From the NCBI GenBank assembly GCA_900317905.1, contig ONIN01000001.1, forward strand, positions 186,001 through 250,000: a stretch of 64,000 nucleotides of DNA, given 5' to 3'. The notes below the pieces were generated by a model. It ran no database searches. It saw nothing but the letters and a program-made list of their open reading frames with translations, and was not told where the DNA came from. How positions within the stretch are numbered: the stretch's first letter is position 1; each line of letters begins with the position of its first letter. Shown here piece after piece: positions 2,781 through 8,931 of this stretch. The position numbers were made by a program, and so were the translations under genes. This DNA is from an uncultured Eubacteriales bacterium. GTDB taxonomy: Bacteria; Bacillota; Clostridia; Oscillospirales; Oscillospiraceae.

Positions 2781-4022
2781 TTATTTTGCAAGCACCTTTT
2801 TCAGTCTGGCGTAGCGGGGGAGGGCCTGCTCCTTCGGAATCACAGGCTCGCCCTGGATCAGCGGCAGCGCGTACTCGATGAAATCATCGGTGACCTGGTT
2901 CTTCTCGGGAGTGATCCACTCGATGGGGATCTTTTTCTCGAAGTTTGCAACCGCGCTCAGAGGCAGCAGCTTGGTGGCGCAGTGATACTTGCCGTCCACC
3001 ATCTCGCGCTCGAAGGCGACCATCTTGCCGGTCTCACCGTTCACAGCAGCTTCCACAGCCACCTTACCGGCGAGGAACGCCTCGTCCACGTCGGTCTGAG
3101 AGGCCAGATGCGCGCCGCAGCGCTGCAGCAGGCTCAGCTCAATGCCGCGCACCTTGGCACCGGTCTCTTCCTTCACGATGCGGGCCAGAAGCGCCGCCAG
3201 ACCGCCCAGCTGGGCGTGGCCGAAGCCATCGGTGGCAGAGGTCTTGGCCTCGGAGACAAAGGTACCGTCGGCATAGTGGATGCCCTCGGAGACGGCAACC
3301 AGAACCTTGCCCTTCTCATCATAGATCTTCTGCACGTCCTTGAGGAACTGACCCATTTCGAAGTCTACCTCAGGCAGATAGATCAGATCCGGGCCCGCAC
3401 CGAAGTGCTCGGCGAGCTTGGAACTGGCGGCCAGCCAGCCGGCGTGACGGCCCATGATCTCCACAATGGTGATCTGACCGTTATCGTAAACGGTGGAGTC
3501 CTTGCTGACCTCCATGCAGGTGGTGGCGATGTACTTTGCGGCGCTGGCGAAGCCGGGGCAGTGGTCGGTACCGTAAAGGTCGTTGTCGATGGTCTTCGGA
3601 ACGCCCATAACGCGGCATTCCCAGCCGCTCTTATCCATGAAGCGGCTGATCTTGCTGCAGGTGTCCATGGAGTCGTTGCCGCCGTTGTAGAAGAAATAGC
3701 GGACGTTGTACTTCTGGAAGATCTCCAGAATGCGCTTATAGTCGCGATCATCCTCGTCGGGATCCTTCATTTTATAGCGGCAGGAGCCCAGCTCGGAAGA
3801 GGGGGTGTTCAGCAGAAGGCTCAGCTCATAAGCATCCTCCTGGCCCATGTCGTAGAGCTTATCGCCCAGAACGCCCTTGATGCCGTGGGCGGCACCGTAA
3901 ACGTTGGTAATGCTTTCAGACTCCAGTGCGGTCTTGATGACACCATAAGCGCTGGCATTGATGACGGCGGTGGGGCCACCGGACTGGCCAATGATACAGG
4001 CCCCTTTCAGCTGATTCGCCAT
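2781..4022 (-). CDS. pfp: Pyrophosphate-dependent 6-phosphofructokinase
   Basis: This enzyme phosphorylates fructose 6-phosphate using PPi (reversible, EC 2.7.1.90) in cytosolic glycolysis. The two residues that decide the phosphoryl donor are both of the PPi type: Asp117 in GGNDS (ATP enzymes have GGDGS) and Lys143 in PKTIDND (ATP enzymes have PGTIDND). The substrate motif MGRHAGW is present. At 413 residues it is longer than the 320-residue bacterial ATP-PFK, as expected for this clade. The ATG at 4022 is preceded by GGAGG on the minus strand. It is divergent from fba, the next glycolytic enzyme, so the intergenic region 4023-4159 probably serves both. Confidence 0.95.
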   Translation of the reverse strand: MANQLKGACIIGQSGGPTAVINASAYGVIKTALESESITNVYGAAHGIKGVLGDKLYDMGQEDAYELSLLLNTPSSELGSCRYKMKDPDEDDRDYKRILEIFQKYNVRYFFYNGGNDSMDTCSKISRFMDKSGWECRVMGVPKTIDNDLYGTDHCPGFASAAKYIATTCMEVSKDSTVYDNGQITIVEIMGRHAGWLAASSKLAEHFGAGPDLIYLPEVDFEMGQFLKDVQKIYDEKGKVLVAVSEGIHYADGTFVSEAKTSATDGFGHAQLGGLAALLARIVKEETGAKVRGIELSLLQRCGAHLASQTDVDEAFLAGKVAVEAAVNGETGKMVAFEREMVDGKYHCATKLLPLSAVANFEKKIPIEWITPEKNQVTDDFIEYALPLIQGEPVIPKEQALPRYARLKKVLAK

Positions 4023-4159: not shown

Positions 4160-5095
4160 ATGGCAATTGTAACTTCCAAGGAAATGTTTGAAAAAGCATA
4201 CAAAGGCGGCTATGCAATCGGCGCTTTTAATGTGAATAATATGGAGATTATCCAGGGTATCACCGAGGCTGCCAAGGAGTGCCAGGCCCCTGTGATCCTG
4301 CAGGTTTCCTCCGGTGCCCGCAAGTATGCCAACCGCACCTATCTGGTCAAGCTCGTTGAGGCTGCCGTCATTGAGACCGGCCTGCCCATCTGCCTGCACC
4401 TGGATCACGGCGACACCTTCGAGCTGTGCAAGAGCTGCGTGGACGACGGCTTCACCTCCGTCATGATCGACGCCTCCTCCAAGTCCTTTGAGGACAACAT
4501 CGCGCTCACCCGTCAGGTGGTCGAGTACGCACACGATCACGGTGTTGTGGTCGAGGCCGAGCTGGGCACCCTTGCCGGCGTGGAGGACGACGTGAACGTC
4601 TCCGCTGAGGATTCCTCCTACACCCGTCCCGAGGACGTGCAGGAGTTTGTGGAGCGCACCGGCTGCGACTCTCTGGCCATCGCCATCGGTACCAGCCACG
4701 GCGCTTACAAGTTCAAGCCCGGCACCAAGCCGCAGCTGCGCTTCGACATTCTGGAAGAAGTCAGCAAGCGTCTGCCCGGCTTCCCGATCGTGCTGCACGG
4801 TTCTTCCTCTGTGCCCCAGGAGTATGTCCAGATGATCAACGAGCACGGCGGCAACATGCCCGGCGCCATCGGCGTTCCCGAGGATCAGCTCCGCGAGGCC
4901 TCCCGTCTGGCCGTCTGCAAGATCAACATCGACTCCGACCTGCGTCTTGCCATGACCGGCACCATCCGCAAGTTCTTCGATGAGAACCCCGGCGAGTTTG
5001 ACCCCAGAAAGTATCTGGGCCCCGCTCGCGAGAACATCAAGCAGCTCGTTAAGCACAAGATCATCGACGTGCTCGGCTGCGACGGAAAAGCCTGA
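4160..5095 (+). CDS. fba: Class II fructose-1,6-bisphosphate aldolase
   Basis: This zinc-dependent aldolase cleaves fructose-1,6-bisphosphate to DHAP and glyceraldehyde 3-phosphate. GAFNVNNME near the N-terminus, the zinc-binding HLDHGD, the acidic EAELG segment and HGSSS are all present. The 311-residue length is normal for the family. The start chosen is the ATG at 4160 (MAIVTSKEM). AAAGGA at 4141-4146 sits 13 nt from it but only 7 nt from an in-frame TTG at 4154, so a two-residue-longer start is possible. An open extension back to 4082 crosses the promoter leader and lacks a ribosome binding site. A perfect 12-bp hairpin follows the stop. Confidence 0.96.
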   Translation: MAIVTSKEMFEKAYKGGYAIGAFNVNNMEIIQGITEAAKECQAPVILQVSSGARKYANRTYLVKLVEAAVIETGLPICLHLDHGDTFELCKSCVDDGFTSVMIDASSKSFEDNIALTRQVVEYAHDHGVVVEAELGTLAGVEDDVNVSAEDSSYTRPEDVQEFVERTGCDSLAIAIGTSHGAYKFKPGTKPQLRFDILEEVSKRLPGFPIVLHGSSSVPQEYVQMINEHGGNMPGAIGVPEDQLREASRLAVCKINIDSDLRLAMTGTIRKFFDENPGEFDPRKYLGPARENIKQLVKHKIIDVLGCDGKA

Positions 5096-5112: not shown

Positions 5113-5141
5113 CGATGCGCCGGATAACCTCCGGCGCATCG
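5113..5141 (+). terminator. Hairpin after fba
   Basis: A perfect 12-bp GC-rich stem (5113-5124 with 5130-5141) and a five-base loop are followed only by a weak TTCT tract. It probably attenuates read-through into the gene at 5168. Confidence 0.65.
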
Positions 5142-5167: not shown

Positions 5168-6841
5168 ATGGACCTTCAAACCAGATTGGAGCAGCTCACC
5201 GACTGCGTGTTTCCCAGCGATCTTCCAGACTATGACTGGAGCAAGATGGATCTGATCCGGGAACCGGAACAGAAAATGCTGCTGCTGATTCGCCTTGCCG
5301 TTGCGGCGATGCTGTTTGCAGCCTCGCTGTTTCTGCCTACGGGCGGGTTCCTGTACACGCTGTTTCTGATTCTGTCTGTGGTGGTTTCCGGTTATGATTA
5401 CCTCCTCGGCGCGGTCAGGAGCGTGGTGGAGCGGGAGCCGTTCACAGGTTCCATGTTCATCTCCATCGCACTGATCCTGGCGCTGGCGGCGGGAGACCGG
5501 GTGGACGCTGCGGCCTTCATGATCCTCTATCGGGTCATCGGCCTGCTGGCGGCATTCATTACAAGCCACACGGTACGTGCCCTTGAGGAAGCAGTAGGGG
5601 AGTCACCGCGTTTTCGCAGTGCATGCGCCGCGCCCTCGTGGATTCGCTATGTGGCGCCGGTGGGCCTGGTGGCAGCGTTGGTGGTTTTCATCGTACAGCT
5701 TTGGGTGGCGGAGGCTGCGCCGGTTCTGGCAGCCCGTTCCGCGTTGAGCGTACTGGTGATCGCCAATCCCTTTACGCTGCTGGCATCTGTGCCGCTGACC
5801 TGGCTCTGCGCACTGTATGGTGCCTATGTCTATAAGATCCTGTTTCGCAGCAGCGCCTCTATGCGGAGACTGCTGCATGTGAAAAGTGTGGTTCTTGACG
5901 ATACCAGCGCTGATGAGGAATCTCTGCCAAAGCTGGTTTCTGTGAAGTCCGACAAGGTGCCGCCGGAGATGCTTCTGCGTCTTGCCGCCTACGCCGAGTC
6001 CAACTCCGAAAGCCGCACGGCCCGGGCCATTCTGGCTGCCTTCCATGAAGAAATCGACCAGAAACTGATTCAGAAGACTCTGGACATTCCCCAGTGCGGG
6101 GTGGAAGCATACATCAGCAATCTGCATCTGTTTGTCGGCACCCGGGAGCTCATGCTCTTACACGGCGTCACTGTGCCGGAAGAGGATCTGACTGATGACT
6201 ATGTGGTCTACGTGGCGGTGCAGGGCACCTATGCCGGCAAGCTGATTTTACAGGAGACCGCCAACGACGATACGGTGGATACCTTGGATGCCCTCCGTGG
6301 CCTCGGTGTCCGCACCGTGACCCTGTTCCGCCCGGCGCAGAACGAGTCCGTCACCAGTGTGGCGAAATCGCTCCACGCGCAGCTGTTCTGCAAGCTGACG
6401 CCGGAGGAGAAGAATCAGACCCTCTACAAGCTGCAGAAAGGTCTGCCGAAAGGGGAGTCTCTGCTCTATGTAGAGCGGGACTGCCAGGTGCGGGAGCACC
6501 GCACCCCTGCGGACGTGAACATCTGCATGATTCGCGGCGACAACATGCAGCAGTTTGACACTGACGTTCTGATCGTGGACGGCGATCTGCATTGTGTGGC
6601 TGAGACCATGGAGACGGTCAAGTGGGTCAACGGCCTCTGCAGCGATCATCGGCTGCTGACGGCGGCTGCCAAGATCCTCCTGGTGATTCTGGCCGTGCTC
6701 GGCTGCAGCACCATGTGGTTCGCGGCTGTTCTGGACGGAGCCGCCATGCTTACGACCCTGCTGCTCAGCGTCCGTGCCTTCCGATTCCGGGAAGAGCATA
6801 AGCGAATCTGGGATTTTGCACGGATCTACAAGAAAGTCTAA
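5168..6841 (+). CDS. P1B-type (heavy-metal) P-type ATPase-like pseudoenzyme lacking the actuator domain
   Basis: This 557-residue membrane protein has the overall layout of a heavy-metal P-type ATPase, but every catalytic signature is altered. About four membrane helices (residues 38-135) lead almost directly into the next pair (about 158-215), so the actuator domain with TGE is missing. The CPC metal site reads NPF (200-202). DKTGT reads DDTSA (244-248), with only the first Asp kept. The SEHP motif of the nucleotide domain reads SESR (280-283). TGD reads FRP (387-389). The hinge GDGxND reads VERDCQ (435-440). PEEK (412-415) and the two C-terminal helices (about 497-537) remain. The frame is intact with no stops, so this is a maintained protein, not a decayed gene. 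GGGAAGGGAGG precedes the ATG. Its function is unknown; metal transport by the usual mechanism is very unlikely. Confidence 0.8.
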   Translation: MDLQTRLEQLTDCVFPSDLPDYDWSKMDLIREPEQKMLLLIRLAVAAMLFAASLFLPTGGFLYTLFLILSVVVSGYDYLLGAVRSVVEREPFTGSMFISIALILALAAGDRVDAAAFMILYRVIGLLAAFITSHTVRALEEAVGESPRFRSACAAPSWIRYVAPVGLVAALVVFIVQLWVAEAAPVLAARSALSVLVIANPFTLLASVPLTWLCALYGAYVYKILFRSSASMRRLLHVKSVVLDDTSADEESLPKLVSVKSDKVPPEMLLRLAAYAESNSESRTARAILAAFHEEIDQKLIQKTLDIPQCGVEAYISNLHLFVGTRELMLLHGVTVPEEDLTDDYVVYVAVQGTYAGKLILQETANDDTVDTLDALRGLGVRTVTLFRPAQNESVTSVAKSLHAQLFCKLTPEEKNQTLYKLQKGLPKGESLLYVERDCQVREHRTPADVNICMIRGDNMQQFDTDVLIVDGDLHCVAETMETVKWVNGLCSDHRLLTAAAKILLVILAVLGCSTMWFAAVLDGAAMLTTLLLSVRAFRFREEHKRIWDFARIYKKV

Positions 6842-8062: not shown

Positions 8063-8566
8063 TCAGGAAATCGGGGTTCCGATGGATTTTATGCCTGTGA
8101 ATCGCTCTCCGAGCCTGTTTGCCTGATTTTCCGGATAAACCGAAAAATACGAGATCTTTTTTTCTTTCCGCAGCTTCTTCATTGGCGGCAGTGTCGCCCA
8201 CAGCACCGACGGCAGTCCCACCGTGATCAGATACAGCGGTCCCCACACCAGACTCTGAATCGTGTGGCCGTATTCGTGCACCTTCAGTCCCTGCAGAAAT
8301 GTATTCATATTATGATCTTTTTGATTCTTCTGATAATAATAAAATGGCTTGTCCGTCAGGAACAAAAACATACCCAGCGACAGACTGGACTTGTGCGGCC
8401 AGTATGTCACATGCGCGCCGCAGAAGGTCTCCTGCGGGCAGTTTCGATAGTATAAACTGAGCGCAAGTCCCGCCAGCGTCTGCGGCAGCCCCCAGGTCCA
8501 CTGGGCAATCTGATATCCGGCATATTTTAAGTTTGGATTCTCTTTTTCAGGAGTCATCGGTATCAT
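8063..8566 (-). CDS. Membrane protein with HExxH motif, unknown function
   Basis: The family is not recognised. The 167-residue protein has a hydrophobic segment near residues 27-42. A HEYGH motif (HExxH, the zinc signature of many metallopeptidases) lies near residues 97-101 and is followed directly by a hydrophobic stretch that could be a membrane helix (GPLYL..VGLPSVLW). A basic stretch and a YPENQANRLG segment come near the C-terminus. Conservation of HExxH next to a hydrophobic helix suggests a small membrane metalloprotease, but no third zinc ligand can be assigned by eye. It follows the small membrane protein gene at 8596-8931 by 29 bp and may be its partner. An ATG nine bases downstream (8557) is an alternative start; neither has a strong ribosome binding site. 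Confidence 0.65.
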   Translation of the reverse strand: MIPMTPEKENPNLKYAGYQIAQWTWGLPQTLAGLALSLYYRNCPQETFCGAHVTYWPHKSSLSLGMFLFLTDKPFYYYQKNQKDHNMNTFLQGLKVHEYGHTIQSLVWGPLYLITVGLPSVLWATLPPMKKLRKEKKISYFSVYPENQANRLGERFTGIKSIGTPIS

Positions 8567-8595: not shown

Positions 8596-8931
8596 TCAGT
8601 ATTCCCGCTTATATTTCTGATAGATTTTGTGGTATGTAAAAATCAGCACACCAAGTCCCACGGTGCAGACCAGCACCAAAAGGGTCGCTGCCGCTTCCGG
8701 ATACCAGATAAACAGAAACGTAGAGATCCAGTGCGGGATGGAATACACGCCCCACATGATCCCGTTGGCGTGGTTATAGTCCTCCACATCCGTGATTTCC
8801 TCACGCCGCACCGTGGAGCCGGACCAGAACCACATGGGTTCCTCGCGGCGATAAGCGTAGATCCCGATGCCGGTAAACGTCAGCGCACAGCCGCCGACAC
8901 AGATCAGCCAAACCAGTAATCCGCCATTCAT
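8596..8931 (-). CDS. Small three-helix membrane protein, unknown function
   Basis: This 111-residue protein has three predicted membrane helices (about residues 5-27, 58-75 and 80-98). A conserved-looking polar loop between helices 1 and 2 carries WFWSG, a run of charged residues and DYNHANGIMW. No function is known to me. AAGGAAA precedes the ATG. It starts 13 bp after the radA stop and precedes the HExxH protein, so it is probably the penultimate gene of the DUF3048-cwlD-radA transcript. Confidence 0.65.
   Translation of the reverse strand: MNGGLLVWLICVGGCALTFTGIGIYAYRREEPMWFWSGSTVRREEITDVEDYNHANGIMWGVYSIPHWISTFLFIWYPEAAATLLVLVCTVGLGVLIFTYHKIYQKYKREY

Follow-up and report, generated by a model that had tools for sequence, protein, structure and literature searches.

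P-type ATPases rank among the best-studied molecular machines, and the locus analysed here raises the question of what becomes of one when the parts that use ATP are gone and the gene is still there. The window, a stretch of 64,000 nucleotides from an uncultured member of the Oscillospiraceae, carries such a candidate behind a glycolytic aldolase gene (Table 1). The initial annotation, made from the letters and open reading frames alone, had taken it for a P1B-type ATPase without catalytic motifs or actuator (A) domain, kept for a non-transport role in what would be a maintained family of pseudoenzymes. We examined this proposal through homology, phylogeny, selection and gene order.

Table 1. 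Features of the window that bear on the pseudo-ATPase and its locus
Feature	Position	Strand	Basis or remark
Diphosphate-dependent phosphofructokinase, divergent from the aldolase	2781..4022	-	NF010675, 557.8 bits (cut-off 273); conserved at the locus
Class II fructose-bisphosphate aldolase, 72 nt upstream of the pseudo-ATPase	4160..5095	+	TIGR01859, 364 bits (cut-off 343); PF01116
Strong hairpin between the aldolase and pseudo-ATPase genes	5113..5141	+	No clear T-run; gap MFE -29.7
Degenerate P1B-2-type ATPase (putative pseudoenzyme), 557 aa	5168..6841	+	TIGR01525, 4umv profile match, dN/dS
D113, equivalent of ZntA E202 (M2)	5504..5506	+	Alignment to 4umv, numbering counted by hand
A-domain deletion site, residues about 138-157, short M2-M3 linker	5579..5638	+	M2-M3 length against intact pumps
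NPF (N200-P201-F202) in place of the CPC metal motif	5765..5773	+	Alignment
DDTSA (D244-D245-T-S-A) at the DKTGT site; position of the phospho-acceptor Asp retained	5897..5911	+	Alignment
N domain, residues about 251-364	5918..6259	+	Boundaries by eye; relatively most conserved cytoplasmic part in the window genus
K502, equivalent of ZntA K693 (M5)	6671..6673	+	Alignment to 4umv; 50/50 core rows
D523, equivalent of ZntA D714 (M6)	6734..6736	+	Alignment to 4umv; 50/50 core rows

Descent and catalytic motifs of the window protein

The 557-codon frame is open throughout, as first read, and the P1B-like order of helices and P/N-like region that had been proposed for it were upheld by profile matches. 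The protein matched the heavy-metal P-type ATPase model TIGR01525 (E 4.7e-29) and TIGR01512 (E 2e-23), each below the curated cut-off of the model, as well as the LpCopA structure 3rfu (E 2.5e-16), and for a profile of the window protein with eight relatives (A2) the best match to any solved structure was to the zinc ATPase 4umv (E 8.8e-58). All 27 members of another profile (A4) matched TIGR01525 too, and the hydrophobic stretches of the window protein agree with an MA-MB, M1-M4, M5-M6 layout. Pfam alone nearly misses it, with PF00122 at E 0.0032 and below cut-off. On the evidence of homology over the membrane, P and N regions, with matches far above chance, the protein is a P1B ATPase by descent, and the same comparisons place its ancestry among the zinc/cadmium-type P1B-2 ATPases.

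Set beside ZntA and other P1B-2 pumps (TIGR01512; PDB 4umv), the window protein is alike in helix order and in its P and N regions, as judged by profile alignment, and shares the acid of M2, the Lys of M5 and the Asp of M6, but it is without an A domain, its CPC cysteines, HP, TGD and GDGxxND are replaced, and its DKTGT is altered. In the alignment, HP corresponds to S282-R283, TGD to R388-P389-A390 and GDGxND to E436-R-D-C-Q-V; the replacements had thus been read correctly, except that FRP and VERDCQ, as the last two had been given, were each one residue off. The claim that all catalytic motifs were replaced was slightly too strong: CPC, HP, TGD and GDGxxND are indeed gone, but the Asp that is phosphorylated in DKTGT remains as D244, which is present in all seven aligned members of the window genus. 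Lys415 and the Asp at 449 are also largely kept. None of the features that define P1B ATPases as enzymes (a full DKTGT, a TGE-bearing actuator domain, TGD and GDGxxND) was found in the window protein, and of those of the P1B-2 subgroup CPC is absent and the M5 Lys and M6 Asp of ZntA are present.

The absence of a TGE-bearing A domain between the membrane pairs was confirmed by length: the stretch from M2 to M3 spans 51 aa in the window protein, whereas two intact pumps have 154 aa there, and the roughly 103 residues by which it is shorter are those of the A domain. Supply of this domain in trans was considered and dropped, since a stand-alone A domain was not found in the protein's own genome (79.6% complete), where all four PF00122 matches over cut-off sit in frames of 645-859 aa. 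Across eight other genomes (G006, G007, G009, G013, G328, G193, G199 and G161) the smallest frame with a near-full match (2-181) measured 524 aa; the shorter matching frames were those of G193 (194 aa, a fragment at the edge of a contig) and, with weak matches to part of the model, those of G006 (295 aa with one stop; E 0.0045) and G199 (406 aa; E 0.0047). With neither GDGxxND nor an A domain and its TGE, and with DKTGT and TGD altered, the chemical cycle is almost surely dead as far as the motifs can tell, and ATP-driven pumping by the window protein is very unlikely.

A degenerate family under purifying selection

In seven of the nine other genomes of the window genus (G002 and G004-G009) there is an orthologue, 95-43% identical, with zero internal stops and, in G005, some undetermined bases close to the end of the frame; no orthologue with intact motifs, which would have pointed to a copy in decay, occurs among the seven. 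The remaining two (G001 and G003, 82% and 57% complete) gave weaker matches alone (E 6.9e-24 and 9.5e-23), comparable with the matches that intact pumps give. When 400 genomes of the taxonomic family were searched with a profile and 71 loci were read, at least 50 degenerate sequences in 49 genomes and 10 genera came to light among the matches listed, and more members may exist beyond these. Fifty core degenerate rows share one side of a branch, with SH-aLRT 81 in a tree of 80 rows (which leaves out G412, a 321-aa fragment) and 70 in a reduced tree of 64 rows (17 of 81 omitted); both are quick trees with a midpoint root and SH-aLRT support only, and the genomes sampled are mostly incomplete. 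G119, G248, G139 and G104 branch elsewhere and were therefore kept outside the core; G119 is just mildly altered and the other three are degenerate. Among these, G248 (locus L105) is pump-like, with an intact DKTGT, TGSS for TGES, GAS for CPC and GDGASD for GDGxND, and is possibly a separate onset of degeneration.

Within the core, no row has a full DKTGT or a GDGxND, DKTG is kept in 6/50 and CPC in 10/50. The positions of the CPC motif hold Pro in 48/50, the first Cys in 12/50 and the second in 21/50, and the position of the phosphorylated Asp is Asp in 40/50. The equivalent of ZntA E202 is Glu in 42 rows and Asp in eight, and the equivalents of K693 and D714 are Lys and Asp, and the M6 Trp is kept, in every row. 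An A domain is absent from 33/50 and present in 17/50, with TGE at the aligned place in two of those 17. Motif loss is therefore conserved across the family as regards DKTGT and GDGxxND, whereas the missing A domain is a trait of part of it and the Asp has mostly stayed. Because a tree that forces the 26 A-less rows of the reduced set into one group was rejected at a cost of 58.7 log units (AU p 0.000477; the group was defined by the trait, though after sight of a first tree), and because the M2-M3 stretch measures 51 aa in the window genus and 66-69 aa in genera g5, g65, g125, g118 and g52, the A domain was, on these sequence comparisons, probably lost at least twice. All 17 forms with a mutated A domain are without GDGxND, which suggests that GDGxND was lost before the A domain.

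At the level of the order, profile A4, which includes A-domain-bearing members, gave no separation of degenerate from intact pumps, and the search was therefore redone with A2. Matches at E <= 1e-93 occurred in 13 of 394 genomes, two of them the protein's own genome and G012; the ten others that were read (an eleventh, L172, was left out) were all intact by motif, so that no degenerate pump outside the taxonomic family was found among them, though pumps that degenerated independently elsewhere could score under this threshold and escape detection.

Purifying selection acts on the gene. NG86 dN/dS ranged from 0.039 to 0.288 in 13/13 pairs from five genera, with estimates that are rough where dS is near 1, and the window protein gave 0.049 against G008, 0.077 against G002 and 0.175 against G004; the neighbouring aldolase, phosphofructokinase, XerD-like and RadA genes mostly gave lower values (0.011-0.170). 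An open frame without catalytic residues is thus being maintained by purifying selection, which is how a maintained pseudoenzyme is recognised, and the proposed family of maintained P1B pseudo-ATPases is supported by orthologues without stops, by dN/dS, by occurrence in 10 genera and by conserved synteny. Since the parts that use ATP are gone and selection nevertheless keeps the gene, the former pump probably has a new job. Its effective number of codons is 44.0, like that of the XerD-like gene (43.9), against 31.4 for the aldolase (phosphofructokinase, 32.1), and it is therefore probably expressed less than the aldolase.

Constraint is unevenly spread along the protein in several lineages. 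In 990 of 1225 degenerate pairs, which are not independent of one another, the N domain shows higher identity than the remainder of the protein; among canonical pairs this holds for 1 of 276. Within genera the same shift appears in g1 (28/28), g75 (13/15), g125 (12/15) and g4 (10/15) and is weak or absent in g5 (13/28), g107 (2/6) and g118 (0/21); regional dN/dS in three close pairs did not single out the N domain.

The locus behind the class II aldolase

The proposed comparison of gene neighbourhoods revealed conserved synteny with the aldolase: in 44/50 core rows a same-strand class II aldolase ends at most 105 nt upstream (a gap value of -29 in four rows is a floor, where the chosen start codon falls within the aldolase end), and the phosphofructokinase usually lies beyond the aldolase in divergent orientation. 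The six exceptions are four members from g107, G034, which lies beside the phosphofructokinase, and G413, at a contig edge. The hairpin of the aldolase/pseudo-ATPase gap recurs in four of eight loci of the window genus and may thin out read-through; a promoter scan found no plus-strand match between 4136 and 7000.

The same slot behind aldolase and phosphofructokinase is held by intact P1B-2 pumps in G086, G213 and G064, 478-609 nt downstream of the aldolase, and the G086 pump is the intact row nearest the degenerate side of the midpoint-rooted tree. These pumps differ from the window protein in having all motifs intact, an A domain, and an ArsR/SmtB-type regulator (NF033788) that fills the gap between aldolase and pump in 3/3 cases. 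In G066, an intact-looking N-terminal part of a pump lies about 2.3 kb behind the aldolase and is again preceded by an NF033788 regulator. An ancestral order of aldolase, ArsR and pump, with later loss of the regulator, is suggested by this arrangement. Since intact pumps hold the same slot, the link to the aldolase predates degeneration and does not prove that the two genes work together.

Several further observations concern this locus. In G022, a lone ArsR-family gene (L217 2524-2901) stands between the aldolase and the XerD-like gene with no pump, perhaps a relic of a lost pump operon. G060 (6% contamination) has two pairs of aldolase and pseudo-ATPase on two contigs (L085 and L097); both of its pseudo-ATPases keep CPC, and one begins with a Cys/His-rich stretch. 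A survey behind the aldolase in 60 genomes from 60 genera, five with less than 2 kb readable, added two degenerate members that were recognised later and are not among the 50 core rows: G178 (L191, g94), where Glu replaces the M6 Asp, and G148 (L223, g21), which has decayed further and has also lost the M5 Lys and M6 Asp, each lying directly behind the aldolase. In the window, two small ORFs (167 and 111 aa; 8063-8566 and 8596-8931, minus strand) lie between the XerD-like gene and RadA; a Pfam search with both gave no match, and both occur in part of the genus.

Possible roles of a former pump

In ZntA, as described in two papers, D714 and the CPC cysteines bind the metal together, K693 and D714 form a pair in the closed E2.Pi state and E202 sits on the exit path, and in plant HMA4 the K and E mutants are reported to be inactive (PMC8880997, PMC6305203). 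The reading that we favour, with less than even confidence, is that of a selected pseudoenzyme family with a dead cycle and a closed membrane domain, in which the N domain serves the aldolase, its metal or glycolytic flux. Because the Lys-Asp pair is kept while the CPC cysteines are lost, the membrane domain would be held in a closed, metal-free, E2-like state. With the A domain gone, the N domain would be free to act as the working part and bind a ligand or a partner protein; in several lineages it is, in relative terms, better conserved than any other soluble part. The likeliest client would be the aldolase, its metal or the flux through glycolysis, given the near-touching gene order, an argument weakened by the intact pumps that share the slot. 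Several observations speak against this reading: the buried Lys-Asp pair may be kept merely for stability, and G148 has lost both residues and G178 the Asp; the N-domain shift is not general, as g118, g107, g5 and the regional dN/dS indicate; four g107 members live away from the aldolase; and the codon bias is unlike that of the aldolase. A more specific proposal, which we consider unlikely, is that dead pumps whose actuator domain was deleted more than once now provide the aldolase step of glycolysis with a platform at the membrane or a source of metal, with the nucleotide-binding domain rebuilt to bind another ligand or protein.

Other roles would draw on the same observations. The N-domain constraint seen in g1, g75, g125 and g4, taken with the g107 members located away from the aldolase, would also suit a sensor in the membrane that responds to a metabolite, nucleotide or metal, signals by way of its N domain and is not directly linked to the aldolase; we regard this as rather unlikely, since searches with Pfam and NCBIfam-type models found no attached signalling domain in the window protein and residues of the ATP site in the N domain, such as HP, are changed. 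Class II aldolases use a divalent metal, and the P1B-2 membrane domain could conceivably persist as a passive or secondary conductor, a path or carrier that lets metal or protons cross without ATP and provides, for example, zinc to the neighbouring class II enzyme. The three charged residues of the ZntA pathway, kept in 50/50 core rows, and the ten rows that still have CPC would fit such a conductor, which we nonetheless hold to be distinctly unlikely: the CPC cysteines are mostly lost, so that the high-affinity site is gone in the window genus, and an unregulated metal leak would presumably be harmful. Improbable to a like degree is a regulatory partner of, or metal sensor for, a second, intact P1B pump of the cell. 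Intact pumps are encoded on contigs C23 and C8 of the protein's own genome, and at least 45 of the 49 core-member genomes hold a further match at E <= 1e-45 among the matches listed (counted by eye, not each read for motifs), but the pseudo-gene is linked to the aldolase and not to intact pumps, four genomes, which may be incomplete, are without a second match among those listed, and P1B pumps are not known to need a partner of this kind.

Residual, altered catalysis, such as slow phosphatase activity or phosphoryl transfer at the kept Asp, is a very unlikely role. Retention of the DKTGT Asp in 40/50 core rows speaks for it, as do Lys415 and the Asp at 449, which are largely kept; the Asp itself is gone from the other ten, and all 50 have lost GDGxxND, the motif by which P-type ATPases hold the catalytic Mg ion. 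Hardly credible is a decaying gene without function, for all the breadth of motif loss, the far-decayed members such as G148 and the identities of just 21-28% among genera, for the 13 dN/dS values and the seven stop-free orthologues of the window genus, down to 43% identity, contradict it; a decaying pseudogene was ruled out on dN/dS and conserved frames.

For such a pseudoenzyme family, we found no close precedent in the open-access papers searched, where none joined 'P-type ATPase' with 'pseudoenzyme' and nothing on inactive, degenerate or truncated P-type ATPases came up, though a description elsewhere is possible. The P4-ATPase-like module of Plasmodium guanylyl cyclase alpha is likewise a P-type-ATPase-like membrane module tied to another function, but it is eukaryotic, of P4 type and fused to a cyclase, and its activity is reported to matter, hence it is no dead pump (PMC7858053). 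Matches to heavy-metal-ATPase models in these genomes can be pseudo-pumps and call for caution. With its graded forms, from intact pumps through proteins that retain an A domain with its motifs lost to those from which the domain has repeatedly gone, the family makes the order of loss testable, and with it non-pumping uses of the P-type fold.
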